Assembly (NCBI GenBank): GCA_013286145.1
Contig: JABDGH010000007.1
Coordinates: forward strand, 1-64,000
DNA from: Verrucomicrobiota bacterium
Lineage (GTDB): Bacteria > Verrucomicrobiota > Verrucomicrobiia > Methylacidiphilales > UBA1321
Length of the DNA stretch: 64,000 nt
Direction: 5' to 3'
Below the pieces are notes generated by a model. That model ran no database searches. It worked only from the letters and a program-made list of their open reading frames with translations, and was not told the origin of the DNA. The position numbers and the translations under genes are program-made. The first letter of the stretch is position 1; every line of letters starts with the position of its first letter. Below are positions 26,396 to 52,137 of this stretch, piece after piece.

Positions 26396-27295
26396 ATGCC
26401 GACTTCACGCTTCATTGGTCATCTCGGCTTTACTGCCCTTGTCATCGCCATGCTTGGTATTTTTACCTCCACCTCGCGCAGCGCACCCGTCCATCCGGTG
26501 ATCGCACTGTTCACCGACTACGGCTGGGAAGACCCTTATGTGGCGCAACTCAAGGGCGCGATTTTGACCATCGATCCGAACGCGCGTCTCGTTGATCTCA
26601 CCCACACGGTGACGCCCTTCAACGTGGCCGAGGGAGCTTATCTTCTCGATCAGTCGTCCGAGGAATTTCCCGCCGGAACCATTTTTGTCGCGGTGGTCGA
26701 TCCGCAAGTTGGCACGGAACGCGATCCGATTTTGGTCGAGACCGGCAAGGGGAAATTCTACGTCGGTCCCGATAACGGCCTTCTTACCAACGTCATTGAC
26801 CGCGAAGGCTTCAGCAAGGCTTGGAAACTCGACAAGCCCGCCTATTTCCGTTCCGGTGCCACCTCTCATACTTTCCATGGTCGCGATATTTTCGGGCCCG
26901 TGGCGGCGCATCTTGCTGCGGGCACTGACCCCGATAAACTTGGCACACCTCTTTCCTCCAAGTTGATGACCCTGCTTCCGGTCAAGGATCCTTCGCTGGC
27001 TGGCGGGGTTATTTCCGTCCAGGTCATGCATATCGACCGCTACGGCAACGTGGTCCTGAATCTGCGTGCCACCAACGACCTGGCACCAAAATTAAAGGAG
27101 GGGAACCTGGTTAAAATCTCGGTTGGAAAAGAAAACTATTCCGGGCCGCTGGTGAAGACTTACGGCGATATTGAAAAAGGCCGGCTGATCCTGCTCTATA
27201 GCAGCGGCGGGCTGCTAGAAATCGCGAAGAACCAGGGATCAGCCGCAAAGGAATTGAATGTCCAGCCCGGTACCGTCATCTTTTTAAGACCGTGA
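26396..27295 (+). CDS. DUF62-family SAM hydrolase-like protein with a signal peptide
   Basis: A 299-residue protein. After a probable signal sequence (FTALVIAMLGIFTSTSRSAP) it shows the family motifs: VIALFTDYGWEDPYVAQLKG, DLTHTVTPFNVAEGAYLLDQ, VAVVDPQVGTERDPI and FYVGPDNGLLTNV, then a C-terminal beta domain. Family members hydrolyse S-adenosylmethionine to adenosine and methionine, or halogenate it in the actinomycete fluorinase. Export would be odd for a SAM enzyme and suggests another adenosyl or nucleotide substrate. The usual Gly of VVDPGVGT is Gln here. It overlaps manA by four bases (GTGA). Confidence 0.85.
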   Translation: MPTSRFIGHLGFTALVIAMLGIFTSTSRSAPVHPVIALFTDYGWEDPYVAQLKGAILTIDPNARLVDLTHTVTPFNVAEGAYLLDQSSEEFPAGTIFVAVVDPQVGTERDPILVETGKGKFYVGPDNGLLTNVIDREGFSKAWKLDKPAYFRSGATSHTFHGRDIFGPVAAHLAAGTDPDKLGTPLSSKLMTLLPVKDPSLAGGVISVQVMHIDRYGNVVLNLRATNDLAPKLKEGNLVKISVGKENYSGPLVKTYGDIEKGRLILLYSSGGLLEIAKNQGSAAKELNVQPGTVIFLRP

Positions 27296-28236
27296 ACGCT
27301 TATTTTTTTAAACCGATTTATCAGGAACGTATCTGGGGCGGCCACAACCTGAAGAGTCTCTTTAACCGCACTCTGCCGGAAGGGAAAAAAATCGGCGAGA
27401 GCTGGGAAGTGGTCGACCGTCCCGAGGCATGCAGCGATGTTCTTTCCGGGCCGGGCGCAAAAACGGAAGGCCGATATAATCTGCACACGCTCTGGCTGGA
27501 AAAACGCATTGAGGTTTTCGGCACCCGTGCGCCCGATCTGGCCCGGTTCCCCATCCTGATCAAACTGCTTGATGCCCAGGACAAGCTCAGCGTCCAGGTA
27601 CATCCCCAGCCGGGCCAGGGTGGCGAACCGAAAACGGAGATGTGGTATTTTCTCGAGACCACGCCCGAGGCAAAAATTTATGTCGGCCTAAAAAAAGGCG
27701 TCAACCGGGAAAAGTTTGAGAAAGCCATCGGCACACCCGATCTGCCCAACCTTCTCCACAATCTCCATCCCCAGCAAAGCGATGTGATGTTTCTACCCAG
27801 CGGGCGCGTCCATGCCATCGGAGCCGGAAGCGTTATTCTCGAAATCCAGCAAAATTCCGACACGACCTATCGCGTGGATGATTGGGGCCGCGTGGATGAA
27901 CACGGAAAATCCCGGGCGCTCCATCGCGAGGAGGCGCTCGCCTCGATCCGGTTCAACGATCACGAACCGCAATTTGTGCAGCCTCACGGTGAACGCGTCC
28001 TGCAATGCCCCCACTTTACCGTGGAGCGGGCCTTCATCTATCCGGGGGAATATCGTGTCTGGACCAGCGACCAAACCAGTTTCCAGTACCATTTTCTTGC
28101 CCAGGGCGAACTCAAGATCGATGACCATACCTTCAAACGAGGCGACAGTTGGCTCGTACCCGCCAGCGAAGAAAGTTATAACCTCGAACCGCTCGGCGAA
28201 GGCGCGGAACTGATCACGGTTCAGTGGGGACGTTAG
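27292..28236 (+). CDS. manA: Mannose-6-phosphate isomerase, type I
   Basis: Interconverts mannose-6-phosphate and fructose-6-phosphate with a zinc ion. The 314-residue protein has the cupin motifs of the short type I form: YQERIWGGHNLKSLFNRTLP, RFPILIKLLDAQDKLSVQVH (zinc His region), GEPKTEMWYFLETTPEAKIY and PSGRVHAIGAGSVILEIQQN. The start is a GTG at 27292 overlapping the stop of the preceding gene, so translation is probably coupled. It could feed mannose units into polysaccharide or glycoprotein synthesis. No GDP-mannose genes are nearby. Confidence 0.93.
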   Translation: MNAYFFKPIYQERIWGGHNLKSLFNRTLPEGKKIGESWEVVDRPEACSDVLSGPGAKTEGRYNLHTLWLEKRIEVFGTRAPDLARFPILIKLLDAQDKLSVQVHPQPGQGGEPKTEMWYFLETTPEAKIYVGLKKGVNREKFEKAIGTPDLPNLLHNLHPQQSDVMFLPSGRVHAIGAGSVILEIQQNSDTTYRVDDWGRVDEHGKSRALHREEALASIRFNDHEPQFVQPHGERVLQCPHFTVERAFIYPGEYRVWTSDQTSFQYHFLAQGELKIDDHTFKRGDSWLVPASEESYNLEPLGEGAELITVQWGR

Positions 28237-28312
28237 TGCAGGAAGCAGTTTACACGATGCCAACAGATTGTTAAATTAGACCAACCCAATTCAACCTTTA
28301 CTGGAGACCCTT

Positions 28313-29086
28313 ATGCTAACTACGCGCCGTCAAGCCATCAAAACCCTCGCTGCCGCCACCCTGGGAACGTCTCTCGCACAATTTTCCACCCAGGCGGCAG
28401 ACACAAATTCGAGCGTGCTCGTCATGCCCGGAGCCACCCCCGCCGCGCCCGAGCCACCGCCAACGGGACCTTATACAATGCCGCCCTTGCCTTATGGCTA
28501 TGGAGGATTGGAGCCCATGATCGACGCCCAAACCGTGGAGCTTCACTACACCAAGCACCACGCCGCGTATGTCGCCAAGTTGAATGAAGCGGTGGCCAAG
28601 GTGCCTTCCCTGGCCAAAAAGACCAACCTGGAAGAGATGCTTAAAAATCTTTCCGCTGTGCCGGAATCCATCCGCACCGCCGTGCGTAACAACGGGGGAG
28701 GCCACTACAATCATTCGCTTATGTGGCAAACATTTTCACCCCACGGCGGCGGCTTTCCGCCAGGCGATCTGACCATGCCCATTTGTAACACCTTCGTCAG
28801 TTTTGAAAAATTCAGGGATGAATGTGTCACGGCCGCCAACGGTCTTTTCGGTAGCGGATGGGTCTGGCTCGTCCTCGATCACGCCAAGAAGCTCTCCGTC
28901 ATGACCACCCCCAATCAGGACAGCCCGCTTTCCGTTGGGAAATACCCGCTCTTCGGCATCGATGTGTGGGAACATGCCTATTACCTCAAGTATCATAATG
29001 TCCGCTCCGATTACATCTCCGCTCTATGGAATGTTGTGGATTGGGTGGTCGTTACGAAACGGTATGGCCTGGCAATGCAGGCTTAG
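28313..29086 (+). CDS. Superoxide dismutase (Fe/Mn family), Tat-exported
   Basis: A 257-residue protein with a twin-arginine leader (MLTTRRQAIKTLAAATLGTS, ending near AQFSTQAAD) and a Pro-rich spacer. The Fe/Mn-SOD fold follows: LPYGYGGLEPMIDAQTVELH, then HYTKHHAAYV (first ligand His), GGGHYNHSLMWQTFSP (second His), and GIDVWEHAYYLKYHNVRSDY (Asp and His ligands). All four ligands are present. Choice of Fe or Mn cannot be fixed by eye. Tat export of a folded, metal-loaded SOD implies defence against external or periplasmic superoxide. Confidence 0.93.
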   Translation: MLTTRRQAIKTLAAATLGTSLAQFSTQAADTNSSVLVMPGATPAAPEPPPTGPYTMPPLPYGYGGLEPMIDAQTVELHYTKHHAAYVAKLNEAVAKVPSLAKKTNLEEMLKNLSAVPESIRTAVRNNGGGHYNHSLMWQTFSPHGGGFPPGDLTMPICNTFVSFEKFRDECVTAANGLFGSGWVWLVLDHAKKLSVMTTPNQDSPLSVGKYPLFGIDVWEHAYYLKYHNVRSDYISALWNVVDWVVVTKRYGLAMQA

Positions 29087-29210: not shown

Positions 29211-31310
29211 TTATTTCTGATTTTTCTTTTGCCCGAGCATGGCTTCCGCTCTCGCTAGATTTTTTTGCGCATCGATATAATCGGGCTTCCGTCGAATGGC
29301 TTCCTGAAATTTGGCCACTGCCTCGTTCACCTGCCCTTTTTGTATCAGGGCAATGCCCAAACTATTGTAAGCCTCGATACAATTAGGATCGATTTCCAAG
29401 GTCTTTTGGTACTGGGCAATCGCCTCATCCACCTGCCCTTTTTTAAAAAGAGCAATGCCCAGGTTGTGGCGGGGTTCGGCGCTGTTGGGATTGATTTCCA
29501 GGGCCTTTTGGTAATGGCTTATCGCTTCGTCCATCTGCCCTTTTTGGGAAAGAGTCAGGCCAAGATTGTTATGGGCTTCAGCCATGTTGGGGTTGATGGC
29601 CAAGGCCATTTGGTATTGGGCAATCGCGTCGTCCCTCTCTCCTTTTTGCGCAAGGATATTGCCCAGGTTGCTGTGAGCGTCGGCCGCATTCGGGTTGATG
29701 GCCAGTGCCTTTTGAAACTGAACGATGGCTTCGTCCATTTCTCCTTTTTTACAAAAAATAGCGCCAAGGTTGTTGTGGACTTCGGCCAGGTTGGGATCGC
29801 TTTCCAGGGCCTTTTGGAACTGGATGATCGACTCGTCTATTTCCCCTTTTTGGACAAGGGCAATGCCGAGGTTGCTTCGTGCCCGGGCAAAGTTGGGGTC
29901 GATTTTCACAGCCCTTTGGTAGTGGACAATCGCCTCGTCCACTTCACCTCTTTGGGCAAGGACATTGCCAACGCCGTTGTGAGCTATCGAGGATTGAGGA
30001 CTGACTTGCAGCGTGTCAGCCCAAAGAGAAGGGTCGCCGGCGAAAACATCTTCGCGAGTCAGCGTAAGAAAAGTCAGGGGCAACATCGCGCCGAATAAAG
30101 GCACCACGGCCATCCAGAATCCCCGGTTCGATTTCGATGCCATCAGAAGCAAGGCCAGCAGTTGCATCGCCACTCCGGCCAGTGGCAGATAGTAAAAGCG
30201 GTCAGCCAAGGGACGATTGAGAGGGATAAAGTTGGAAACAGTCGCCAACCCCAGCCAATAAATCGCAACCCCAAGAGCGCCCATTCGACTTCTGTAAGCC
30301 AGCCAGCCTTGCAGCGAAACCACCACGGCAAGAATCGCCAGTGCCAGTGGCGTCGAAGGCCATTCGATATCCGCCCACGTATAATCAGCCGAGAATTGTA
30401 CCGGCCAAAGCAATTTGGCCATCATGAAAACCCATATACGAGGTTGAACCCAAAAAACCTGGAAGAATGATCCGCCAAGATAGCCCAGGGAAACCTGCCC
30501 CTGCGGAGCCAAAAGAAATCGTGCCGCCAGAAAAGCCACCGTCACTGCCATCGCTGCACCTATAAACAAAAACCATGGCCCTTTTGCTTCCCGGCGACGA
30601 AATAAAAACCAATAGACGATGAGCAGTGCCACTGTCGTGACGCCCGATTCCTTTGAAGCCACGGCAGCGAAGGCGCAAAGGGAGCCGACACTTCCGACGA
30701 TCATCACAGATCGGAAATTCTCCGGACGAAAGGCCATCGCCGCAAGCAAGGCTAATAAAGTAAAGACCGTCACCAGCAGGCTTGAGCTGTAACTTATTTC
30801 AGCGACCGACTCCACGGCGATAGGATGCAGGGCAAAAACCAAAGTGACCACCGCCGCCGCGAGTTGAACCTTTAGAACGCCGTTTTTGTTCAGGCCCGTT
30901 AGCTCCGTTGCAATCAATCGGCACAACACTATGTACAACAGCGCCACATTCGCCGCATGGAGCAGATTGCTGCATAAATGATACCCGAACGGTTCTTTGC
31001 CACTGACGACAGCGATGAGCATCAGATAAAGCATTTGTCCCGGCCGGGCACCGAGCGTGAGATTCATGCTCAATACTTTTAACGAGAGAACGGCTGAGAT
31101 GTTGGAAAAGGAGGTGATAAAACCTTCCTCAATAATTTCGATACGCGCGTCGTAAACAAAATCGGATTTGAGTGAGGGCCAATAAACCGCAAAGGCCACC
31201 GCCGCCAGCAAAAGGGCCACCCAGGCGCTCCAAGGCGGTATTTTCGTGCTCGGCGCAAGCGACGAGACGTTGGGATCCAACGCTTTCTTTTTTCTGGATC
31301 GTTTTGCCAT
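29211..31310 (-). CDS. Membrane-TPR protein, paralogue A (TMTC-like architecture, 7 TPRs)
   Basis: 699 residues. A basic N-terminus (MAKRSRKKKALD) precedes about 10-12 membrane spans (residues 30-430). Loops carry FVYDARIEIIEEGFITSFSN, LHPIAVESVAEISYSSSLLV and KESGVTT, in the same order and form as the D/E-rich, HP..E.V and KEQG motifs of TMTC-type O-mannosyltransferases and other GT-C proteins. The tail has seven 34-residue TPR units (for example NLGIALVQKGEIDESIIQFQ). It could be a glycosyltransferase or a scaffold at the membrane; no activity is proven. Head of the last unit in a four-gene tandem array, with the conserved leader at 31326-31360. Confidence 0.85.
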   Translation of the reverse strand: MAKRSRKKKALDPNVSSLAPSTKIPPWSAWVALLLAAVAFAVYWPSLKSDFVYDARIEIIEEGFITSFSNISAVLSLKVLSMNLTLGARPGQMLYLMLIAVVSGKEPFGYHLCSNLLHAANVALLYIVLCRLIATELTGLNKNGVLKVQLAAAVVTLVFALHPIAVESVAEISYSSSLLVTVFTLLALLAAMAFRPENFRSVMIVGSVGSLCAFAAVASKESGVTTVALLIVYWFLFRRREAKGPWFLFIGAAMAVTVAFLAARFLLAPQGQVSLGYLGGSFFQVFWVQPRIWVFMMAKLLWPVQFSADYTWADIEWPSTPLALAILAVVVSLQGWLAYRSRMGALGVAIYWLGLATVSNFIPLNRPLADRFYYLPLAGVAMQLLALLLMASKSNRGFWMAVVPLFGAMLPLTFLTLTREDVFAGDPSLWADTLQVSPQSSIAHNGVGNVLAQRGEVDEAIVHYQRAVKIDPNFARARSNLGIALVQKGEIDESIIQFQKALESDPNLAEVHNNLGAIFCKKGEMDEAIVQFQKALAINPNAADAHSNLGNILAQKGERDDAIAQYQMALAINPNMAEAHNNLGLTLSQKGQMDEAISHYQKALEINPNSAEPRHNLGIALFKKGQVDEAIAQYQKTLEIDPNCIEAYNSLGIALIQKGQVNEAVAKFQEAIRRKPDYIDAQKNLARAEAMLGQKKNQK

Positions 31311-31325
31311 GCGGTCTCGATCTCT

Positions 31326-31360
31326 AGGATGAACACTTTTGAGCTTCCTAAAAGTAGATT
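31326..31360 (-). promoter_or_regulatory. Conserved 35-nt leader box upstream of paralogue A
   Basis: In coding sense it runs AATCTACTTTTAGGAAGCTC followed by AAAAGTGTTCATCCT. It ends 15 nt before the ATG. The same box stands before paralogues B, C and E. It contains a CTTyTAGGAAG near-palindrome and no Shine-Dalgarno. Confidence 0.65.
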
Positions 31361-31387
31361 ATGTATTGCACCCTGCCTGCAAAGGGA

Positions 31388-33271
31388 TCATTTGGGGGCA
31401 ACTTTTTGCTGTGCCCTGAGTAGATTTTTTTGCGCGTTGAGATCGTTAGGATTGGATCTTAAGACTTCCTGAAATTGAGAAATCGCCTCGTCCACTTCCC
31501 CTTTTTGAAAAAATATATTGCCGAGATTGTTACGGGCGTCGGCATTATTTGAGTCGATTGCCAGGGCTTTTTGAAACTCGGACATCGCCTCGTCCATTTG
31601 CCCTTTTTGCGCAAAAAGAGTGCCGAGGTTGCTGTGAGTCTCAGCCAAATTAGGATCGATTTCCAGGGCTTTTTGAAACTGGGTTATCGCCTCGTCCACT
31701 TGTCCTTTTTGTGCAAGGGCAATGCCGAGATTATTGTAAAATCGGGCAATGTGAGGATTGATATCCAGAGCCTTTTGAAACTGAATCACCGCCTCATCCA
31801 CCTGCCTTTTCTGCATAAAAGCCAAGCCAAGGTTACTGTGGACTTCGGCAATATCCGGGCGAATTTCCAATGCTTTTTGGTAATGGGTTATTGCTTCATC
31901 CACCTGGCCCTTTTGCATAAGAGCCAAACCAAAACCATGATGGGCTGTCTCGGAAAGAGGACTGACTTGCAGCGTGTCAGTCCACAGAACGAAGTCGTTG
32001 GCGAAAACAGCTTCGCGGGTCACGGTGAGAAAAGTCAAAGGCAGGAGCGCAACGAAGCAGGGTATGACCGCGACTAAAAATACTCGTTGCGATTTTAAGG
32101 TCATGAGGAGCAGGGCCAGTAATTGCATCGTCACTCCCGCCAGAGGCATATAATAAAAGCGGTCGGCCAGCGGATGGTAGAGCGGGATGAAATTGGAAAC
32201 CGTCGTCAATCCCAGCCAGAAGGTCGCAACTCCCAGCGCACCGATTCGACTCTTCCACGCCAGCCACCCTTGCAGCAAAATCACCACGGCAAGAATCGTC
32301 AACGCAACGGAGGTCGAAATTCCGCTCGCATTTTCCAGCGTGTAATCGACCGAGAATTGTGTCGGCCAAAATAATTTGCCCATCATAAAAACCCACAACC
32401 GGGGCTGGATCAGGAAGACCTGCGAAAACGATCCGCCCAGGTAGCTCAAGGGTTCCTGGCCGGGAGGAGCCATAACGAATCGCGCCGCCAAAAAGGCTAC
32501 CGTCACTGCCAGTGCGGAACCCAAAAACAGAAGCCACGGCAACTTCGTTTCTTTGCGTCGAAATAAAAACCAGTAGGCAGTAAGCAGCAGCGCCGTCGTA
32601 ACGCCTGATTCTTTCGAGGTCACCGCGGCGAACGCACAAAAAACACCTAAGCTTCCCATCCGTATCGCGGATTGAAAATGCTCCGGGCGAAAGGCGGTCG
32701 CCGCGAGCAACGCCAGCAGCGTGAAGAAGGTCACCAGCAGACTCGAACTGAAACTAATCTCGGCGACAGACTCCACCGCGATCGGGTGCAGGGCGAAAAT
32801 CAGAGTAACCGCCGCCATCGCGAGTTGGACTTTCAAAACATCGCTTTTGCCCAGGCCCGTTAGCTCCGTTGCAATTAAACGGCGTAACAACACAAACAAA
32901 AGCGCGACGTTTGCCGCGTGGAGCAGATTGCTGCTCAAGTGATACCCGAATGGCTCCTTGCCCCAGATCGCGGCGTTGAGCATGAGATAAAGCATCTGCC
33001 CAGGACGAGCCCCGAGAGTGAGATTCATGCCCAATACTTTTAACGAGAGAACGTCAGGCAGGTTGGAGAGAGACGTGATAAAGCCTTCATCGATTATTTC
33101 TATGTTTGCGTCATAAACAAACCCCGATCCAAGCGATGGCCAGTAAACCAAAAATGTCACCGCAGCCAGCAGAAGCGGTATCCAAGCCCTCAAAAGCAGC
33201 ACTTGAAAATTGAGCGCACGCGATGAGACGCTATGCTCGATCTCCTTCGTTTTTCTGGATCGTTTAGCCAT
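31388..33271 (-). CDS. Membrane-TPR protein, paralogue B (5 TPRs)
   Basis: 627 residues, closely similar to paralogue A over the membrane half (FVYDANIEIIDEGFITSLSN, LHPIAVESVAEISFSSSLLV, YWFLFRRKETKLPW) and starting MAKRSRKTKEIEHSVSSRA. The tail has five TPR units (NLGLAFMQKRQVDEAVIQFQ and so on) and ends LLRAQQKVAPK. The 77-bp gap to paralogue A is almost entirely the leader box of A, so the duplicated unit is leader plus gene. The role is as uncertain as for A. Confidence 0.85.
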   Translation of the reverse strand: MAKRSRKTKEIEHSVSSRALNFQVLLLRAWIPLLLAAVTFLVYWPSLGSGFVYDANIEIIDEGFITSLSNLPDVLSLKVLGMNLTLGARPGQMLYLMLNAAIWGKEPFGYHLSSNLLHAANVALLFVLLRRLIATELTGLGKSDVLKVQLAMAAVTLIFALHPIAVESVAEISFSSSLLVTFFTLLALLAATAFRPEHFQSAIRMGSLGVFCAFAAVTSKESGVTTALLLTAYWFLFRRKETKLPWLLFLGSALAVTVAFLAARFVMAPPGQEPLSYLGGSFSQVFLIQPRLWVFMMGKLFWPTQFSVDYTLENASGISTSVALTILAVVILLQGWLAWKSRIGALGVATFWLGLTTVSNFIPLYHPLADRFYYMPLAGVTMQLLALLLMTLKSQRVFLVAVIPCFVALLPLTFLTVTREAVFANDFVLWTDTLQVSPLSETAHHGFGLALMQKGQVDEAITHYQKALEIRPDIAEVHSNLGLAFMQKRQVDEAVIQFQKALDINPHIARFYNNLGIALAQKGQVDEAITQFQKALEIDPNLAETHSNLGTLFAQKGQMDEAMSEFQKALAIDSNNADARNNLGNIFFQKGEVDEAISQFQEVLRSNPNDLNAQKNLLRAQQKVAPK

Positions 33272-33285
33272 GCCTCTTGGTTGCC

Positions 33286-33320
33286 AGAATGAACACTTTT
33301 GAGTTTCCTAGAAGCAGATT
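33286..33320 (-). promoter_or_regulatory. Conserved leader box upstream of paralogue B
   Basis: Same 35-nt box, in coding sense AATCTGCTTCTAGGAAACTC then AAAAGTGTTCATTCT, 14 nt before the ATG. After it comes AACCAAGAGG, shared with paralogue D. Confidence 0.65.
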
Positions 33321-33342
33321 TCGTCCGGTCTTGAAAAGCCAT

Positions 33343-35244
33343 TCATTTATGGGCTCCATGAGCTATTATAGCCTGCACGTTGGGCAGATTATTTTTCGCA
33401 TCCTGATTGTCGGGATCCAGTTGTAAGACTGCCTGGAACTCAACCAGCGCCTTTTCCATCTCTCCTTTGCCAAAAAAAACGAGGCCGAGATCGTAGTGAG
33501 CCAAAGTCAGGTTGGGATTAATTTCCAGGGCTTTTTGGTATTGGGCTGATGCATCGTCCAATTGTCCTTTATTGAAATAAATATTGCCAAGATTGACATG
33601 CGCCTCGATATGGCCGGGATTAATTTCCAGTGTCTTTATGTACTGGGACATCGCCTCGTCCACCTGCCCTTTCTGAAAAAGAGCAATCCCGAGATTATAG
33701 TGAGGAGTGGCCATTTTCGGAGCTATCTTCAAGGCTTGTTGATATTGAGAAATCGCTTCGTCCACCCGCCCTTTTTGAAAAAGGGCAAGACCAAGGTTGT
33801 TGCGAGCGTCAGCCATGTCGGGATTGATTTTCAGGGCTTTTTGAAACTGATCCATCGCTTCGTCGATCTGCGCTTTTTCGGCAAAGTAAGCGCCAAGATT
33901 GTAGTGGCCTATTGAGGAGAGAGGACTGACTTGCAGCGTCTCTGTCCATAGAGAAAAATCGCTGAAAAAGACATCTTCGCGAGCCAGGGTAAGAAGAGTT
34001 AAGGGCGGGAGCGCGCAAAGGAAGAGTATCATCGCCATCCAAAATCCCCGGCTCGATTGTAATGTCATGAGAAGCAACGCCAGGAGTTGCATCACCACCC
34101 CCGCCAGCGGCAAATAATAAAAGCGATCAGCCACGGGACAATAGAGCGGGACGAAATTGGAAACGGGCGCAAGTCCCAACCAATAGATAACCACGCCCAG
34201 AGCGCCTATCCGACTTTTGCAAGCCAGCCACACTTGCAGCAAAATCACCGCGACAAGAATCGCCAGTGAAAGAGGCAGTGAGAATCCAATCGAATCAAGT
34301 GGCGTATAATCAGCTGAGAGTTGCGTCGGCCAAAATAATTTACCCATCATGAAAACCCATAAACGAGGCTGGGTCAAAAAGACCTGGGGAAACGATCCGC
34401 CAAGATAACTCAATGGGGCCTGATCGGGCGGAGCAGGCGGAGCCAAAAGAAATCGAGCCGCCAAAAAGACTGCCGTCACTATCCCTGTGGCACCTAAAAA
34501 TAAAAACCACGGCAATTTCGCTTCCCGACGGCGAAATAAAAACCAGTAAGCAAGGAGTAGCGTCACCGTCATAACGCCCGATTCCTTGCAAGTCACCGAG
34601 GCAAAAGCGCAAAGCGTGCCGACACCTCCGATCATCATCGCGGATCGAAAATTCTCCGGACGAAAGTAGGTCGCCGCCAGTAGCGCCAGCAGCGTGAAGA
34701 ATGTCACCAGGAGGCTCGAGCTGTAACTTACCTCGGCGACCGATTCCACCGCGACGGGATGCAGGGCGAAAATTAAAACGACAACCGCCATCACGAGTTG
34801 AACCTTCAAAATGCCATTTCTGGTCAGTCCTGTTATTTCGGTTGCGATCAAGCGGCGTAACAATGCGAACAACAGCACGACATTCGACGCATGGAGAAGA
34901 TTGCTGCTCAAGTGATATCCGAATGGTTCTTTGCCCCAAATCGCCGCGTTAAGCATCAGGTAAAGCATCTGTCCCGGACGAGTTCCGAGCATCAGATTCA
35001 TGCCCAGCACTTTTAGCGAAAGAACGGCGGGCAGGTTGGAAAGGGAAGTGATGAATCCTTCATGGAGAATTTCCCTGCGCGCGTCGTAAACAAAATCGGA
35101 TTTGAGCGAAGGCCAGTAAACTAAAGAAGCGACCACTGCCAGCAGCAGGGCCATCCAGACACTCAACGGCGGAGCCTTGAAGCTGGACGCAGAGGGCAGA
35201 GTCTTGTTATCGAGCAACCTCTTTTTTCCGGATCGTTTTGCCAT
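33343..35244 (-). CDS. Membrane-TPR protein, paralogue C (5 TPRs)
   Basis: 633 residues beginning MAKRSGKKRLLDNKTLPSAS. The membrane half matches the other paralogues (FVYDARREILHEGFITSLSN, LHPVAVESVAEVSYSSSLLV) but has an insert, APPAPPDQAPLSYLGG, in one loop. The tail has five TPR units, more diverged than in A and B (for example NLGAYFAEKAQIDEAMDQFQ), and ends in IAHGAHK. Its own leader lies at 35260-35294. The TPR tail differs enough from B that partner choice may differ. Confidence 0.85.
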   Translation of the reverse strand: MAKRSGKKRLLDNKTLPSASSFKAPPLSVWMALLLAVVASLVYWPSLKSDFVYDARREILHEGFITSLSNLPAVLSLKVLGMNLMLGTRPGQMLYLMLNAAIWGKEPFGYHLSSNLLHASNVVLLFALLRRLIATEITGLTRNGILKVQLVMAVVVLIFALHPVAVESVAEVSYSSSLLVTFFTLLALLAATYFRPENFRSAMMIGGVGTLCAFASVTCKESGVMTVTLLLAYWFLFRRREAKLPWFLFLGATGIVTAVFLAARFLLAPPAPPDQAPLSYLGGSFPQVFLTQPRLWVFMMGKLFWPTQLSADYTPLDSIGFSLPLSLAILVAVILLQVWLACKSRIGALGVVIYWLGLAPVSNFVPLYCPVADRFYYLPLAGVVMQLLALLLMTLQSSRGFWMAMILFLCALPPLTLLTLAREDVFFSDFSLWTETLQVSPLSSIGHYNLGAYFAEKAQIDEAMDQFQKALKINPDMADARNNLGLALFQKGRVDEAISQYQQALKIAPKMATPHYNLGIALFQKGQVDEAMSQYIKTLEINPGHIEAHVNLGNIYFNKGQLDDASAQYQKALEINPNLTLAHYDLGLVFFGKGEMEKALVEFQAVLQLDPDNQDAKNNLPNVQAIIAHGAHK

Positions 35245-35259
35245 GCGGTCTTGATCCCT

Positions 35260-35294
35260 AGGATGAACACTTTTGAGCTTCCTAGAAGTAGATT
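35260..35294 (-). promoter_or_regulatory. Conserved leader box upstream of paralogue C
   Basis: In coding sense AATCTACTTCTAGGAAGCTC then AAAAGTGTTCATCCT, 15 nt before the ATG. Nearly identical to the box of paralogue A. Confidence 0.65.
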
Positions 35295-35341
35295 TTACCG
35301 GGATGACACCCTCGCCTCGCCCGCAAAGAATCCGGGCAGGA

Positions 35342-36886
35342 TTATTTTGGGAGTTGCCTGGCTAGGTCAGGCCTCAGTCGCTCGACTTCCTGAAACTCCT
35401 TCATCCCCTTCTCCACCTCTCCTTTTGTCATAAGAACATAACCGAGGTTATTATGGGCCTCGGCATAATCGGGATTAATTTTCAGGGCCTTGCGGTACTC
35501 GGCAATCGCCTCGTCCAACTTCCCTTGTTTATCCAAAGTGTTACCAAGATTGTAGTGAGCTATCGGGGAGAAAGGACTGACCTGAACCGTGTCGGTCCAA
35601 AGCGAAAATTCGTTGGCGAAAACTGCTTCACGAGTCAGGGTGAGAAAGATGAGAGGCAGAATTACACCCAGCAAAGGCGCCACCCCCATCCAATATCCCC
35701 AGCGGGAATTCAATGTCATGAGGAATAAGGCCAGCAGTTGCATCGCAACCCCCACCATGGGCAAATAATAAAAACGATCCGCGACGGGACAGTAAAGTGG
35801 AACGAGATTGGAAACGGTCGCCAACCCCAGCCAATAAACGGCGACTCCAAGCGCTCCCAGTCGGCTTTTCCAAGACAGCCAACCCTGCAGCGAAAACACC
35901 ACGGTCAAAATTATCAGCGAGAAGAGCGTCGAAAGCCCCTTCATGTCCTCTTGCGCATAATCAGCCGAGAGATGCACAGGCCAAAGTAATTGGCCCATCA
36001 TGAAAACCCATAAACAAGGTTGGATCAAAAAGACATTCGAGAACGATCCGCCAAGATAACCCAAAGGGTCGCCGCCGGAGGGAGCCATGCTGAATCGAGC
36101 GGCCAGAAAGGCTGCGGTCACCATCATGGCGACACCCAAAAATAAAAACCAGGGCAACTTTGCCTCCTGACGGCGAAACAAGAACCAGTAAACCCCGAGG
36201 AGAAACGGCGTGGCAATTCCTGATTCCTTGCACGTTACCGAGGCGAAGACGCAAACCGTGCCGACGCCCCCCATTATCATCGTCATTCTAAAATTCTCCG
36301 GACGAAAAGCCATCGCCGCGAGCAACGCCAGCAAAGTAAAGAGCGTCACCAGAAGGCTCGAGCTGTAACTCACCTCGGATACGGATTCCACCGCGATGGG
36401 ATGCAGGGCAAAAAGTAGCGTGACCGCCGCCAGCGCCAATTGAATTTTTAAAGTGTGACTTTTGTACAAACCCGCCATTTCCGTGGCGATCAGACGATTG
36501 AGAACCACATACATCAGCGCGACATTCGCCGCATGGAGCAAGTTGCTGCACAAGTGATAGCCGAGCGCGTGTTTGCCACTAACAGCGGCGATAAGCATCA
36601 GGTAGAGCAACTGCCCCGGACGAGCACCAAGCATCAGCTTCATGCCCAATACTTTCAACGTAAGAACAGCGGGAAGATTGGAAAGAGAAGTGACAAAGCC
36701 TTCCCTGATAATTTCGATATGTGCGTCGTAAACCAGATCGGATTTGAGCGAGGGCCAGTAGATTAAAAAAGTCACCACGGCCAGCAGGAGGGACACCCAG
36801 ACATTCAAAAACGGTATTTGAAAGCTGGGCGCAGGCGACGGAATGTTGTTATCCAACGCCTTCTTTTTTTTAGATCGTTTAGCCAT
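35342..36886 (-). CDS. Membrane-TPR protein, paralogue D (2 TPRs, short tail)
   Basis: 514 residues beginning MAKRSKKKKALDNNIPSPAP. The membrane half is complete (LVYDAHIEIIREGFVTSLSN, LHPIAVESVSEVSYSSSLLV, YWFLFRRQEAKLPW), but the tail has only two TPR units (NLGNTLDKQGKLDEAIAEYR and NNLGYVLMTKGEVEKGMKEF) before ending at ARQLPK. This is the array member nearest the release-factor/CDF pair and probably the first to be transcribed. Only the final part of the leader box (TTCATCCT, 15 nt before the ATG) survives; the rest has been replaced by the upstream gene's 3' flank. Confidence 0.85.
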   Translation of the reverse strand: MAKRSKKKKALDNNIPSPAPSFQIPFLNVWVSLLLAVVTFLIYWPSLKSDLVYDAHIEIIREGFVTSLSNLPAVLTLKVLGMKLMLGARPGQLLYLMLIAAVSGKHALGYHLCSNLLHAANVALMYVVLNRLIATEMAGLYKSHTLKIQLALAAVTLLFALHPIAVESVSEVSYSSSLLVTLFTLLALLAAMAFRPENFRMTMIMGGVGTVCVFASVTCKESGIATPFLLGVYWFLFRRQEAKLPWFLFLGVAMMVTAAFLAARFSMAPSGGDPLGYLGGSFSNVFLIQPCLWVFMMGQLLWPVHLSADYAQEDMKGLSTLFSLIILTVVFSLQGWLSWKSRLGALGVAVYWLGLATVSNLVPLYCPVADRFYYLPMVGVAMQLLALFLMTLNSRWGYWMGVAPLLGVILPLIFLTLTREAVFANEFSLWTDTVQVSPFSPIAHYNLGNTLDKQGKLDEAIAEYRKALKINPDYAEAHNNLGYVLMTKGEVEKGMKEFQEVERLRPDLARQLPK

Positions 36887-36919
36887 GTGCCCTTGGTTGT
36901 CAGGATGAATTTTTTCCGC

Positions 36920-37321
36920 TCAATCTTCGGCAGCTACATCGCGTCGCGTACTTTTCTTTTTTGCGCGCACACGCTTCAGGTCTCGCAGGCGCGCCTTGAG
37001 CCAGCCCGGGCGGGGCGCGTTTCGTCTCCGTTTTAATTCCCGCGCCGCACGACGTTGCTGCGCCTCATCATCACAAGCGCGTTGTAATTGCGTCGCCAAT
37101 AATTTCCATGCCGCGAGCCGATTCGACGACTGCGTGCGATGTTCCTGCATTTTTATGAGGATATTTCGCGGGGCGTAACGCAATTGCACACAGGTCGCCA
37201 CCTTGTTCACGTTCTGCCCGCCCGCTCCGCCAGAATGGATGAATGTCTCCTCCACCCGCGTCGGATCGCAACCCAGCGCGACAAGATGTGCGCGAATGTA
37301 ATCAGGAGGAAATGCGCTCAT
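36920..37321 (-). CDS. Release-factor-domain protein with GGQ motif (ArfB/C12orf65-like)
   Basis: 133 residues. The catalytic loop of class I release factors is intact: HSGGAGGQNVNKVATCVQLR, with GGQ at about residues 33-35, followed by the RF-type EHRTQSSNRLAAWKLLATQL. Codon-recognition domains are absent. The C-terminus is basic (RRRNAPRPGWLKARLRDLKR), as in rescue factors that enter the mRNA channel of stalled ribosomes. Rescue of stalled ribosomes is the likely role. Its ATG overlaps the stop of the upstream CDF gene by four bases. Confidence 0.85.
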   Translation of the reverse strand: MSAFPPDYIRAHLVALGCDPTRVEETFIHSGGAGGQNVNKVATCVQLRYAPRNILIKMQEHRTQSSNRLAAWKLLATQLQRACDDEAQQRRAARELKRRRNAPRPGWLKARLRDLKRVRAKKKSTRRDVAAED

Positions 37322-38951: not shown

Positions 38952-39896
38952 ATGCCCCTGACGCGTCGCGATTTTGTCCGTACTCTTTTTGTGGCCTCTC
39001 AAACGGCCGTGGTTGCTCGGCTTATGTCCGGCCAGCTTCATGCGGGCGAACTTCCTGCCGACGCGCTTAACTTCGCCATCATCGGCGACTGGGGGCGACA
39101 CGGACGCCCCGATCAAGTCCAGGTTGCCCAGCAAATGGCCCTCGCCTGTAAAAATGCCAAGGCGGCCTTCGTCATCTCCGTCGGCGATAACTTCTACGAG
39201 AACGGCGTCACCTCGCTCGATGACAAGCAGTGGCAGCAATCTTTTGAGAAAGTATATGACGCGGCCTCACTTCAAGTCCCCTGGTACGTCATCCTTGGCA
39301 ATCACGATTATCGCGGCAACAGCGACGTCCAGCTTGAGTATGGCAAGACCCACCCGCGTTGGATCATGCCCGCTCGGTACTACTCGCAAGTTCATCCGGT
39401 CGATGCCTCGACCCGCATGGAATGTTTCTATATCGATACTTCTCCCATGATCCAGGAGCATCGACACGAGGCCGACATGAGCGCGGTTCTCACGCAGGAT
39501 GTCGATCTCCAGCTTCAATGGCTGGAAAAATCACTGGCTGCCTCGCAAGCCCAGTGGAAATTCGTCATCGGCCATCATCCCATCTATTCATCGGGACTGA
39601 CCCACGGCAACCAGGAAGACATGATCAAGCTGATCCTTCCCATCCTCCAGAAACACAAGGTGCAGGCCTATTTCTGTGGCCACGACCACGATCTCGAACA
39701 CTTGAAAGTCGGTGACCTCAATCTTTTTGTATCGGGTGCGGGATCTGAATATCGTGCGGTCAAGACTCCGTCACAAACCCCGTTCAGTCGCGCCTGCTCG
39801 GGATTTGCCATGGCGTCCGTGCAATCGAAGCAAATGCAAATTCGCATGATCGATAACCTCGGGAAGCTCCTCTACACCACGACCGTATTAGCGTGA
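38952..39896 (+). CDS. Tat-exported metallophosphoesterase (purple-acid-phosphatase-like)
   Basis: 314 residues with a twin-arginine leader, MPLTRRDFVRTLFVASQTAV. The calcineurin-like core is complete: FAIIGDWGRHGRPDQ, VISVGDNFYENGV, PWYVILGNHDYRGN, IGHHPIYSSG and YFCGHDHDLEHL, supplying the metal-binding Asp, Asn and His residues. The GDNFYENGV signature with a Tyr fits the ACP5/tartrate-resistant acid phosphatase type. Probably releases phosphate from organic esters in the periplasm. Its 3' end overlaps the next gene by nine bp, tail to tail. Confidence 0.88.
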   Translation: MPLTRRDFVRTLFVASQTAVVARLMSGQLHAGELPADALNFAIIGDWGRHGRPDQVQVAQQMALACKNAKAAFVISVGDNFYENGVTSLDDKQWQQSFEKVYDAASLQVPWYVILGNHDYRGNSDVQLEYGKTHPRWIMPARYYSQVHPVDASTRMECFYIDTSPMIQEHRHEADMSAVLTQDVDLQLQWLEKSLAASQAQWKFVIGHHPIYSSGLTHGNQEDMIKLILPILQKHKVQAYFCGHDHDLEHLKVGDLNLFVSGAGSEYRAVKTPSQTPFSRACSGFAMASVQSKQMQIRMIDNLGKLLYTTTVLA

Positions 39897-40511
39897 TGGC
39901 GGACTCTGGACGTCACCAAGGCTTGCCGAAAGAACTTCCAGTTCCTTTCGACGCACTTCGAGATTTTTTCGCACAGCAAACTGGTTTAACTGGTAAATCC
40001 CCCAGAAAACCAAAGCGACAAACAGGACGGAAATCAGCAAGTCCATTACCGCCCGATAGCTGAAATGTCCTCCATGCCAAGTTCTATATGACATTGAAAT
40101 GGCTGTGGCCACTATGAACGGCAGTAAATACCACCAGAAGACATTTTTCAGCAGCCAGATTTGGTGATTGATCTGAACCAATGAAGCCTCAATACAACCC
40201 TTGAGCGAATCATTGGAGACCGGGCGTTTTTTTAGCTGAAGTACGCGATCCACCAACATGAATGTCCCAACTCCCATGCATGCAAAAACACTCAGATAGT
40301 CAGTCCAAGCATGATGCTTCCATCCATGATATGCAAAATACAAGGCCAGTAAAAAAGCCAGTCCCACTTCCCGTACATCGCGCCAAAAAATCGTCACCCA
40401 GAACTGTCGTTGATTCCGCCGCACCTCTTTCAGCAGCATCTCTGCGTTGATGGTGACTTGGGCCGAAGTCTTCTGTGACTGCCACGCTTTTTGCAAGTCT
40501 TCAAAGTCCAT
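39888..40511 (-). CDS. Membrane protein paired with ECF sigma factor
   Basis: 207 residues starting MDFEDLQKAWQSQKTSAQVT, the typical opening of proteins encoded behind ECF sigma genes. The N-terminal 50 residues are cytoplasmic. Four hydrophobic spans follow (for example VGLAFLLALYFAYH and LISVLFVALVFWGIYQL). No zinc-binding anti-sigma HxxxCxxC motif is seen. By position it is a candidate regulator or target of the sigma factor, with which it overlaps by 11 bp. Confidence 0.65.
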   Translation of the reverse strand: MDFEDLQKAWQSQKTSAQVTINAEMLLKEVRRNQRQFWVTIFWRDVREVGLAFLLALYFAYHGWKHHAWTDYLSVFACMGVGTFMLVDRVLQLKKRPVSNDSLKGCIEASLVQINHQIWLLKNVFWWYLLPFIVATAISMSYRTWHGGHFSYRAVMDLLISVLFVALVFWGIYQLNQFAVRKNLEVRRKELEVLSASLGDVQSPPSR

Positions 40512-41025
40512 CGGTAGCTCCTTTCAATTGATCTGCCAGTTGCTTGCGAATCCGGCTTAGTTTCACGCCAATATAATTTTCCGAAATACCGAGCACCTCG
40601 GCCATCTCCTGATAACTCAGTCCATCGAGGTGCATCAGCGCCAAAGAAATGTCCACCTTTGGCAATTGACGGATCGCGGCATATAGCCGTTCGACAATTT
40701 CCTGCTCTTGCAATGAATCCACATGGCTCGGCTGCATCTGGGGCGATTCGTCAAACTTCAAGAACGTCTCATGTCCCTCCCGTCGTCGCCGTTCACCACG
40801 CCGCCACGCAAGCATCGTGTTGAAAGCCACCCGATAAATCCAAGTTGTTTCTTTTGCTTCTTGTCGGAAGGCCGGAATCGACGACCAAATTTGGAGAAGT
40901 ATCTCCTGAAGCAAGTCGTCCTGATCTTGCGGTGTCGCCGTACACCCTCGCACCACTTTTAACATCAACCCAAGATGCTCATTGAACCATCGTCGGAAGA
41001 TCGCTTCTTGTTCTTGGGTGGTCAT
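40501..41025 (-). CDS. ECF-type RNA polymerase sigma factor
   Basis: About 174 residues from MTTQEQEAIFRRWFNEHLGL; an earlier ATG at 41040 is possible. Sigma-2 region: PQDQDDLLQEILLQIWSSIP, with WIYRVAFNTMLAWRR. Sigma-4 region: LSYQEMAEVLGISENYIGVK, ending in RIRKQLADQL. There is no region 1 or 3, the ECF pattern. It would direct RNA polymerase to a small stress or envelope regulon. Cotranscribed with the downstream membrane protein. The 130-bp upstream gap is shared with rpsO on the other strand. Confidence 0.9.
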   Translation of the reverse strand: MTTQEQEAIFRRWFNEHLGLMLKVVRGCTATPQDQDDLLQEILLQIWSSIPAFRQEAKETTWIYRVAFNTMLAWRRGERRRREGHETFLKFDESPQMQPSHVDSLQEQEIVERLYAAIRQLPKVDISLALMHLDGLSYQEMAEVLGISENYIGVKLSRIRKQLADQLKGATDGL

Positions 41026-41179
41026 GGAAAGAGTCTGCACTTGATTAAATAGTGACCGTACAGTGTCTTTCCTTACAAAGAATATGAACTGTTAATTCCA
41101 TCAAAAATTCTCCTCCCTGATAATTCCTATAAATTTACTTGCTCCCTGTGGCGACTCTGCTTTAATCGACCCTCACCTT

Positions 41180-44660: not shown

Positions 44661-45467
44661 CTACACCGCTCCCGCCAACGGCTCGGGACGAATGACGCCG
44701 CGCTGGGTGGTGCGGAAGAACTCGGTCAGGACTTTGACGTGCTGGTGGGAAGCATCCCCGGAAGTCTCGATTTTCTCGACTGCCTGGGAAAAGTTGAGCG
44801 TCTTGTCGGCGAGGATGCGGTAGGCACGACGCAACGCTTTGATGTCATCTTGCGAAAACCCGCGTCGTTCCAGCCCGACGTGATTCACGCCGCGTAAATT
44901 CGCCGGGTTGCCATCGACAATCAGGTAGGGCGGCACGTCCTGCACGATCTTGGCACAGCCGCCGATGATCGAATGCGCCCCGACGCGACAGAACTGATGC
45001 ACGGCGCTCAGGCCGCTAATGATCGCATAATCACCCACCACGACATGACCCGCCAAGGTGGCGTTGTTGGAAAAGATGGTGTTGTTCCCCACGACGCAGT
45101 TGTGCGCGATGTGCGAATAGGCGAGGAAAAGATTCCCGTTGCCGATGATCGTTTTTTCACCCACGCCCGTGCCGCGATGGACGGTGGAAAATTCGCGGAA
45201 AGTATTGCCCTCGCCGATTTCGAGGTGGGTCGGTTCGCCCTGGTACTTCAAGTCCTGCGTCTTAAAACCGATGGCCGCATAGGGAAAGAATTCGTTGCGC
45301 GGCCCGATTTTGCTCGGGCCTTCAATCGTGGCGTGATGCCCGACACGGCAACCATCTCCTAATTCCACCCCGGCACCGATCACGGCATAAGGCCCAACCT
45401 GCACGGCAACGCCGAACGTGGCTTTCGGGTCAACGATGGCGGTGGGATGAATAAGCGATTCCGTCAT
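44661..45467 (-). CDS. lpxA: UDP-N-acetylglucosamine acyltransferase LpxA
   Basis: First enzyme of lipid A synthesis. 268 residues from MTESLIHPTAIVDPKATFGV. The left-handed beta-helix hexapeptide repeats are clear (VGPYAVIGAGVELGDGCRVG, ATLAGHVVVGDYAIISGLSA), as is the catalytic His region YSHIAHNCVVG. The C-terminal helical domain has KALRRAYRILADKTLN. It lies 17 bp after lpxC/fabZ in a common operon. Confidence 0.97.
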   Translation of the reverse strand: MTESLIHPTAIVDPKATFGVAVQVGPYAVIGAGVELGDGCRVGHHATIEGPSKIGPRNEFFPYAAIGFKTQDLKYQGEPTHLEIGEGNTFREFSTVHRGTGVGEKTIIGNGNLFLAYSHIAHNCVVGNNTIFSNNATLAGHVVVGDYAIISGLSAVHQFCRVGAHSIIGGCAKIVQDVPPYLIVDGNPANLRGVNHVGLERRGFSQDDIKALRRAYRILADKTLNFSQAVEKIETSGDASHQHVKVLTEFFRTTQRGVIRPEPLAGAV

Positions 45468-45484
45468 GACTATTGCTATAAATT

Positions 45485-46801
45485 CTAAGGATCGACGAGG
45501 CCGAACATCAATTCGCCTTCCGAAACGATATCGTTTTTCACCCGGCAAAGGCACGAGGCCTTGGCGATTTTCCCGCGCGCCTTGGTCAATTCAACCTCGA
45601 TAATCAGCGTGTCGCCCGGCAAGACCGGCTTGCGGAATTTCACTTTGTCCGCGCTCATAAAATAACCGAGCTTCCCGCCACCGCTGAAAGTGCGGCACAT
45701 GAGAAGACTCGCGACCTGGGCCATCGCCTCGACCTGAAGCACGCCCGGCATGACCGGATGCCCCGGGAAATGACCGGGGAAGAAAGGTTCGTTCATCGTC
45801 ACCGCTTTTTGGCCAACGGCCTTGGTCTCACCTTCAAACGAGAGAATCCGATCGACGAGCAGAAAAGGATAGCGATGCGGCAGGATTTTCATGATGTCCT
45901 GGGTATCCATCCCGCCCTCGCCGGTGGGAACATACTCCATGGGCAGGCGTTGCGACTGCCGCTGCTTGTATTGCTTGTAAATTTCGCGCGCCAGTTCGAC
46001 GTTGAGTGCGTGGCTCGGTTTGACGGCGTAAATATGGGCCTTCAATCGACAAGGAAAAAGGCTCAAGTCGCCGATGATATCGAGGATCTTGTGCCGGACA
46101 AATTCGTCCTCATAACGAAGCGGTTCGCGCGAAAGAATCGCGTCGCCGCGAATCACCACCGCATTTTCCAGGCTACCCCCCTTGATGAGCCCCTTCTCCA
46201 TCAGGGGTTGAACTTCCTCGTAAAAAACAAAGGTGCGGGCCAGCGCGATCTCCTTCGCGTAGTTGCCGGTCTCAGGATTCCAGGTGCGATATTGCGTGTG
46301 TTTACCGATATGATTGGCATTCGTGCAACTGATCTCAAAGCGATCCGAGGGCCATGCGATGATATAGCCGCCGTCGCGACTGGTCACACGCACCGGCTCG
46401 TGCAGTTCGTATTCGGCCACGGTCGCATCGAGTTCCTGCTTGCCGGCTTTGTCGAGCATTTCAATAAAGTGCTTGCTGCTGCCGTCGCCGATCGGTGGTT
46501 CGTTGGCGTCGATCTCAATCAGGGCATTATCGATTCCGCAACCGCGCAACGCGGAGAGCAGATGCTCGACGGTATGAATCTTCACGCTGCCCTCGCCGAG
46601 GGTTGTCGCGCGCTCGACCTGCTTCACATTATCGATATGCGCGGCGACGGTCGGTTCGTCGGCTAGGTCGATGCGCTTGAAAACGTAGCCCGTGTTCGCC
46701 GCCGCCGGTTTGACGGTAAGCGTGACATCGGAACCGGTATGTAATGCGGAGCCTTTGACCGACTGGGGTTCGCGCACTGTGGTTTGCTTGAGACTGGCCA
46801 T
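45485..46801 (-). CDS. lpxC/fabZ: LpxC-FabZ bifunctional protein
   Basis: 438 residues. The N-terminal part (about 1-285) is LpxC, the zinc deacetylase committing to lipid A: KIHTVEHLLSALRGCGIDNA (zinc His), FIEMLDKAGKQELD, ARTFVFYEEVQPLMEKGLIK and FVRHKILDIIGDLSLF. The C-terminal part (from about 290) is FabZ, the (3R)-hydroxyacyl-ACP dehydratase: ILPHRYPFLLVDRILSFEGE, MNEPFFPGHFPGHPVMPGVL and EAMAQVASLLMCRTFSG. Both parts look complete and both are in one frame. Such fusions occur in Bacteroidota and some other phyla. FabZ supplies the competing fatty-acid branch, so the fusion could balance the two pathways. Confidence 0.97.
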   Translation of the reverse strand: MASLKQTTVREPQSVKGSALHTGSDVTLTVKPAAANTGYVFKRIDLADEPTVAAHIDNVKQVERATTLGEGSVKIHTVEHLLSALRGCGIDNALIEIDANEPPIGDGSSKHFIEMLDKAGKQELDATVAEYELHEPVRVTSRDGGYIIAWPSDRFEISCTNANHIGKHTQYRTWNPETGNYAKEIALARTFVFYEEVQPLMEKGLIKGGSLENAVVIRGDAILSREPLRYEDEFVRHKILDIIGDLSLFPCRLKAHIYAVKPSHALNVELAREIYKQYKQRQSQRLPMEYVPTGEGGMDTQDIMKILPHRYPFLLVDRILSFEGETKAVGQKAVTMNEPFFPGHFPGHPVMPGVLQVEAMAQVASLLMCRTFSGGGKLGYFMSADKVKFRKPVLPGDTLIIEVELTKARGKIAKASCLCRVKNDIVSEGELMFGLVDP

Positions 46802-51778: not shown

Positions 51779-51793
51779 GGAATCTTGCCTGCT

Positions 51794-51828
51794 AGGATGA
51801 ACACTTTTGATCTTCCTAGAAGCAGATT
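51794..51828 (-). promoter_or_regulatory. Conserved leader box upstream of paralogue E
   Basis: In coding sense AATCTGCTTCTAGGAAGATC then AAAAGTGTTCATCCT, 15 nt before the ATG, although the coding N-terminus has changed. This separation of leader and N-terminus argues for selection on the box itself. Confidence 0.65.
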
Positions 51829-51917
51829 TATTCTTTATTTCAGAGCCTGATCACGTTGTTCCCACGGGAAAACGCAAAAACTGCTCCAGCTCCTTTAGGA
51901 GCTTGTTGAAAAGGCCT

Positions 51918-52057
51918 GTCATCCCGAGCTTGTCGAGGGATCAGACACGTTTTATTTTCCTGAAAACCTGACAATTACAAAAAGACATTGCATTTCCAAT
52001 TGTCCAATTTATTGATCGTCCATAACGCGTCTGATCCCTCGACAAGCTCGGGATGAC
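51918..52057. repeat. Palindromic intergenic repeat, 140-bp family (copy 2)
   Basis: GTCATCCCGAGCTTGTCGAG... on the left and its complement ending at 52057. The centre shares TTGTCCAATTTATTGATCGTC with copy 3. It fills the gap of about 360 bp between paralogue E and rpsT. Confidence 0.9.
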
Positions 52058-52137
52058 GAGTTTTAAAAAGCCTTTTCAGCAAACTCTTAATAAACCCGCG
52101 TTGACATCCCTTTAACTTTCAGCCAGTTTCGCGGGCT

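Follow-up and report, generated by a model that had tools for sequence, protein, structure and literature searches.

A family of at least 19 TMTC-like membrane proteins with a predicted GT-C fold and TPR tails, and an upstream element common to most of them, in a Verrucomicrobiota genome

A tandem array and its genome-wide family

We analyzed a 64,000-nucleotide stretch of DNA (the window) from a Verrucomicrobiota bacterium, focusing on five related genes (A-E) that encode a multi-span membrane half followed by a tail of tetratricopeptide repeats (TPRs). It represents contig C7 of a metagenome-assembled genome (MAG) that totals 2.33 Mb in 103 contigs and is 65.9% complete and 0.14% contaminated. 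The genes were defined by their open reading frames (ORFs) and the number of TPR units was counted in each; the assignment of the membrane half to the glycosyltransferase C (GT-C) fold comes from a structural model of copy D, described below.

29211 to 31310, minus strand: copy A, GT-C half with 11 transmembrane (TM) segments and 7 TPRs
31388 to 33271, minus strand: copy B, GT-C half and 5 TPRs
33343 to 35244, minus strand: copy C, GT-C half and 5 TPRs
35342 to 36886, minus strand: copy D, GT-C half and 2 TPRs (structure modelled)
50003 to 51778, minus strand: copy E, GT-C half and 4 TPRs, without the N-terminus MAKRSRKKK

An earlier reading of the window from its letters (the original prediction) had placed these five frames and counted their repeats correctly, and the motifs it named (FVYDxR, HPIAVESVAE and KESGVT) all occur, with minor differences between copies. 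It had also described the membrane half as nearly constant and the tail as variable. That contrast holds, although "nearly constant" was somewhat overstated: the membrane halves of A-E (about 431-438 amino acids) share 68-73% identity at the protein level and 71-76% at the DNA level, and the tails are 48-58% identical. The phase of the TPRs at the start of the tail is the same in all five proteins, and the tails of A, B, C, and E end in a similar C-terminal cap, with D as the exception.

The array was correctly recognized, but a set of five copies was too small. A genome search found 19 full-length copies of the family of A-E (hereafter class I) and one fragment at the end of contig C92. The full-length copies are on contigs C1 (3), C2, C7 (5), C11, C13 (2), C22 (2), C34, C44 (2), C56, and C62, and their tails range from 2 to 10 TPRs. 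The true copy number is probably higher because the MAG is incomplete. Identity between copies is mostly 64-73%, and the reading frame is intact in 18 of the 19. The remaining copy, C44b (L052:1031-2347), has a frame break within its first ~35 codons, where a later ATG could serve as the start, and keeps an intact upstream element, the membrane half, and three TPRs. The median dN/dS over 153 pairs was 0.19 (maximum 0.27), indicating that the copies are held by purifying selection.

Relatives of this organism have far fewer copies. Seven genomes of the same genus had 0-5 matches each, and four other genomes of the family had 0-1. Among 388 Verrucomicrobiota genomes, with up to four candidates scored per genome, nine others had a match at E ≤ 1e-40, one copy each. 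A scan of genome contigs with an alignment as query (a single-sequence query returned nothing) showed that the closest named protein relatives were 52-58% identical and came from MAGs of Candidatus Methylacidiphilales and other Verrucomicrobia, one of them titled "Bacteroidetes". In a phylogenetic tree, the 19 copies grouped together with weak support (84/54) inside a genus clade supported at 100/100. Its shape resembled a star: inner branches measured about 0.02-0.08 and tips 0.09-0.32. A-D were not each other's nearest relatives, and several groupings were weakly supported. The star-like shape and the grouping of the 19 copies fit a burst in this lineage, and we take A-E to be members of this expansion of at least 19 bacterial TMTC-like proteins.

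Three pairs of copies (C1a/C1b, C13a/C13b, and C11/C62) are more similar at the 5' end than over the rest of the gene. For C1a/C1b, the first ~500 nt of the coding sequence are 83-95% identical, and the remainder about 70-77%. This pairwise profile suggests gene conversion at the 5' end.

The tails vary in repeat number. The original prediction had seen them as interchangeable partner-binding modules, a view that was not supported in that form. TPR positions 2, 5, 9, 12, 13, 33, and 34, which face the ligand groove, were more variable than the others (p 0.001), but likewise in homologues from other genomes, and we regard the pattern as generic rather than as diversification by selection. The repeats are also not recent tandem duplicates, as the nearest match of a unit lay in the same protein for just 8 of 101 units. 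A role in anti-phage defence was considered and dropped, as PADLOC returned only generic TPR matches.

Fold and active-site motifs of the membrane half

The modelled membrane half is a GT-C fold. Full-length Foldseek searches were swamped by TPR matches, and so the membrane half of D was folded separately with AlphaFold2 (pLDDT 78.8, pTM 0.84). When it was compared with the PDB using Foldseek, ranks 1-23 were all GT-C enzymes or subunits with a GT-C fold (probability 0.90-1.00), in line with the GT-C check that the original prediction had suggested. The top match was Pmt4 (probability 1.00, TMq 0.50); the others included STT3/OST, ArnT, Pmt1-2, PIGU, PglB, ALG3, and Emb. Profile matches were weaker. 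For PF08409 (TMTC_DUF1736) the best score was 19.5 bits (copy E), below the cut-off of 27. NCBIfam matches were confined to the TPR part, where A passes the PilW cut-off, a generic TPR match. One homologue (L120) passes PMT_2.

There are 11 hydrophobic segments, and the density of lysine plus arginine per residue is 0.14-0.37 in the cytoplasmic loops versus 0-0.14 outside. This positive-inside pattern predicts 11 TM helices, with the N-terminus inside and the TPR tail in the periplasm, and so reproduces the topology described for TMTC proteins (PMC7801869).

Class I keeps part of the TMTC active site and has lost another part. With Table 4 of PMC7801869 as the reference, the invariant residues in class I are the first Asp of external loop (EL) 1 (D54), the RP pair (R89-P90), K220-E221 in EL3, D309 in EL4, and D370-R371 with Y374 in EL5. 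Other motifs are altered. The second Asp of EL1 is replaced by Ala, or by Gly in C1a. In M2 (SHKSYRP) the HKSY part is lost and only RP remains. In M4, KE(T/Q)xxT, the KE is invariant, the third residue is Ser, and the final Thr is not always kept. M5 (DW) keeps its Asp and has Tyr for Trp (DY), and M7 (ERxxY) is present as DRxxY, a conservative E-to-D change. M3, the RxD of EL2, is lost in class I of the genus. Of the acidic loop residues that the original prediction had asked about, D54, E221, and D309 are therefore conserved, but the second EL1 Asp and the EL2 motif are not.

The loss in EL2 is specific to the genus and appears graded. The corresponding triplet is SSS in 17 of the 19 copies in the MAG, SSS or SSG in 18, and SSD in C44b, the sole copy in the MAG that keeps the Asp. 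Triplets of class I across the genus are SSS, SSG, SSD, ASS, and SSN, and the intermediates SSD and SSN occur in G004, G007, and C44b. Every homologue checked outside the genus has R-x-D/N/E, mostly RED, RKD, or RAD; these include proteins of Planctomycetota, other Verrucomicrobiota, Elusimicrobiota, Sumerlaeota, Omnitrophota, and others. RED is kept in G011, which is from another genus of the same family, and RKD in G006a, which is from the same genus and falls among Planctomycetota in the tree. Many planctomycete homologues combine DA or DS in EL1 with RED, indicating that the second EL1 Asp by itself disappeared earlier. In MtPMT, mutagenesis showed that D74 (EL1), D176 (EL2), and R441/Y444 (EL5) are all needed, and a second acidic residue in EL2 is conserved in most inverting GT-Cs (PMC12331936). 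We infer that the acid lost from class I is the equivalent of D176.

Animal TMTC1-4, which are cadherin O-mannosyltransferases (PMC7801869), have the same N-terminal GT-C half with 11 TM segments and C-terminal TPRs on the non-cytoplasmic side, and share the first EL1 Asp, the RP after it, the KE, the Asp of EL4 DW/DY, and the R..Y before TM10. Class I differs in falling below the DUF1736 cut-off, in lacking the second EL1 Asp, HKSY, and the EL2 RxD, and in being a bacterial set of at least 19 paralogues (versus four) with a common 5' element. The likeness to TMTC in the original prediction thus stands for the architecture, the predicted topology, and several motifs; four tested TMTC features failed, and we therefore call these proteins TMTC-like rather than TMTC. 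Prokaryotic TMTC-like GT-C/TPR proteins, noted in PMC7801869 and recovered in our contig scan from Planctomycetota and Verrucomicrobiota, are direct homologues (roughly 32-40% identical, with KE, DY, and DRY in most), but keep RED, RKD, or RAD in EL2 and are present as one copy each in the nine other Verrucomicrobiota genomes above. MtPMT (PMC12331936) and yeast Pmt1-Pmt2 and Pmt4 share the GT-C fold, the catalytic EL1 Asp, and the EL5 R..Y, but have no TPRs, and D176 of MtPMT is without an evident class I counterpart. ArnT (5ezm and 5f15, Foldseek ranks 7 and 11) matches in fold but has 13 TM segments, another periplasmic domain in place of the TPRs, and lipid A as its acceptor. We conclude that class I is homologous to TMTC- and PMT-type GT-Cs and probably works like them. 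In the open literature searched, we found no described function for bacterial TMTC-like proteins, and no description of the copy-number burst, the EL2 loss series, or the 5' element; most subscription papers were outside that search.

A second class of related genes (class II) shares just 22% identity with class I, but the homology is clear (hhalign 99.9%, E 5.6e-35). Its EL1 reads DD or DDD and its EL2 reads ELKN. In the sister species G006, class II is expanded instead (about 15 or more GT-C/TPR loci among L130-L148, eight with the upstream element).

The upstream element and the array site

A conserved element of ~38 bp, roughly AATCTRCTTYTAGGAARMTCAAAAGTGTTCATYCTRG, precedes A, B, C, and E and ends about 13-16 nt 5' of the ATG. 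Scores below are from the sequence model.

31305 to 31367, minus strand: element of A (65.4 bits, E 9e-19; the match extends into the ATG)
33267 to 33325, minus strand: element of B (59.8 bits)
35239 to 35299, minus strand: element of C (68.7 bits)
36882 to 36915, minus strand: partial, degenerate element of D (17.7 bits, E 8e-4)
51774 to 51835, minus strand: element of E (60.8 bits)

The model, which uses sequence only, found 17 strong sites in the MAG (E 1e-19 to 4e-14), all directly upstream of family genes: 15 precede class I genes (15 of the 19 copies) and two precede the class II genes dC31 and dC62a. Remnants are present at D, C22a, and the C92 fragment. In G006, eight sites precede eight class II genes, and the single site in G007 also precedes a class II gene. 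Identity of the element core was 82.6% among class I copies and 79.4% between the classes, in contrast to 28% for the adjacent upstream 60 bp and a synonymous difference of 54% in the coding sequence. Read as CTTCTA-17-CATCCT, the element has the geometry of a sigma70 promoter and would give a 5' untranslated region of about 9 nt. Its position and conservation are consistent with a shared promoter or operator that would express the set together.

RNAalifold suggested an RNA hairpin (CTAGGA/TCCTAG) in the element, but pair counts showed no covariation beyond shuffles, and we therefore treat the element as DNA and promoter-like. A weak motif match at C1:130341 coincides with the beginning of an unrelated ORF on the opposite strand and was set aside. 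An extracytoplasmic function (ECF) sigma factor (40501-41040, minus strand) and an adjoining ORF without a Pfam match (39888-40511, minus strand) are about 4 kb from the array; the element looks unlike a GGAAC/GTC ECF promoter.

The array lies between two genes that are close together in relatives.

28313 to 29086, plus strand: Fe/Mn superoxide dismutase (SOD), one border of the array site
36920 to 37321, minus strand: ArfB/release-factor-like gene, the other border (named from sequence alone; adjoins SOD in relatives)

The two are about 0.3 kb apart in G004 and 1.2 kb apart in G005, with no array between them, indicating that either this lineage assembled the array here or both relatives lost it. 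SOD belongs to a plus-strand cluster (26396-29086) with S-adenosylmethionine (SAM) hydroxide adenosyltransferase and phosphomannose isomerase (27292-28236) that is kept in G005; the adenosyltransferase and isomerase genes are also adjacent in G003. Because phosphomannose isomerase adjoins SOD in G005, which has no array, we do not take it as evidence for mannose.

An ArsR-type helix-turn-helix fused to a SAM methyltransferase (49051-49980, plus strand) is convergent with copy E. The region upstream of E (51890-52080) contains the short repeat gtcatcccgagcttgtcgagggatcaga and, close to it, an inverted copy; L159 has a similar sequence near 1895. A 794-amino-acid ORF (52505-54889, plus strand) has no Pfam match at E 1e-5, and its start overlaps, by proximity only, an S20-like ribosomal protein region upstream of E. 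An LpxC-FabZ fusion (45485-46801, minus strand) is followed by LpxA (44661-45554), and a DUF2298 membrane protein (58584-60605, plus strand) adjoins undecaprenyl diphosphate synthase (UppS, 57623-58348).

Possible functions and alternatives

We judge the chances about even that class I proteins are lipid-linked-sugar transferases, or donor-binding derivatives of such enzymes, whose periplasmic acceptors are chosen by the TPR tail and that are co-expressed through a promoter-like module. A cavity facing the periplasm would bind a metal ion together with a polyprenyl-phosphate-linked sugar, and each protein would transfer this sugar to an acceptor that its tail of 2-10 units holds and that is probably a periplasmic or exported protein. 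The altered EL2 and EL1 would imply that the sugar or the chemistry differs from that of canonical O-mannosylation. The upstream element would express the set together, and one lipid-linked donor would serve many acceptor-specific enzymes.

Several results weigh against this proposal. The Foldseek E-values are modest (best 8.8e-3, with TMq at most 0.50), and a PDB profile search with the membrane alignment gave no chain. Groove positions that vary no more than in homologues of other genomes argue against strong diversification of the tails. The CTTCTA-17-CATCCT reading is far from the sigma70 consensus, and position and conservation are what point to a promoter. No acceptor, sugar, or donor synthase was identified. 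Finally, catalysis may be lost, with Ser or Gly in place of the EL2 acid in 18 of the 19 copies.

The last point bears on an alternative that we consider somewhat unlikely, in which these are pseudo-enzymes that lost catalysis (EL2 RxD to SSS, EL1 DD to DA), kept the pocket for donor phosphate and metal, and now serve as lipid-linked-sugar-binding scaffolds or receptors presenting periplasmic TPR platforms. No class I copy of the genus has the EL2 Arg and homologues outside it keep R-x-D/N/E, the SSD and SSN intermediates exist, and copies with just two TPRs are maintained, all as expected for such proteins. However, the EL1 Asp, K220-E221, D309, R371, and Y374 are invariant across copies and genera, a degree of conservation beyond what a scaffold would require. 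The site for donor phosphate and metal appears intact and the part modelled as sugar-facing looks rebuilt; this combination argues either for a changed sugar or chemistry, for which we again see about equal grounds for and against, or for the somewhat unlikely donor-binding non-enzyme. We think it quite improbable that these are GT-C enzymes whose acceptors are envelope glycolipids or polysaccharides instead of proteins and whose TPRs dock them to assembly machinery. Many characterized bacterial GT-Cs (ArnT, EmbB, PimE) act on lipids or glycans, and the window holds LpxC-FabZ/LpxA, UGD, UppS, and the DUF2298 protein, but these neighbors are at least 8 kb from A-D, and no glycan cluster was noticed beside other copies, whose surroundings were not systematically annotated.

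Instead of acting as a promoter, the element and first codons could mark the edge at which a spreading gene cassette recombines or moves, a reading that is compatible with either view of the protein and that we regard as unlikely. The sharp upstream limit of conservation, the presence of one element before genes of both classes, the 5'-polarized mosaics (C1a/C1b), and the absence of the array from the syntenic site in two relatives are consistent with a cassette, but the downstream flanks have no matching 3' boundary and no strong match to the element was found away from family genes. It is very improbable, and we disfavor it, that the family is neutral or an artefact, comprising functionless duplicates or several strains binned together: the MAG is fragmented, but the low dN/dS, the intact frames, the identity between copies, the tandem copies on one contig, and the low contamination all argue otherwise.

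Extending the transferase proposal, we tentatively suggest, while holding it to be unlikely in its full form, that this is a coordinated set of at least 19 GT-C/TPR proteins with an active site without the EL2 acid, which would mean a new chemistry or a new donor for GT-Cs, and a TPR tail for each acceptor set, that the 5' promoter and N-terminus module was kept in or spread across two ancient classes, partly by gene conversion, and that this module lets sister species enlarge different classes while the control stays the same.

With at least 19 copies, most of them behind a single apparent control element, and only 0-5 copies in its relatives, this genome is a natural setting in which to ask what the TPR tails select. 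Within one family, the EL2 motif is lost step by step (RED to SSD/SSN to SSS), which offers a direct test of whether the EL2 acid is dispensable in GT-C catalysis.

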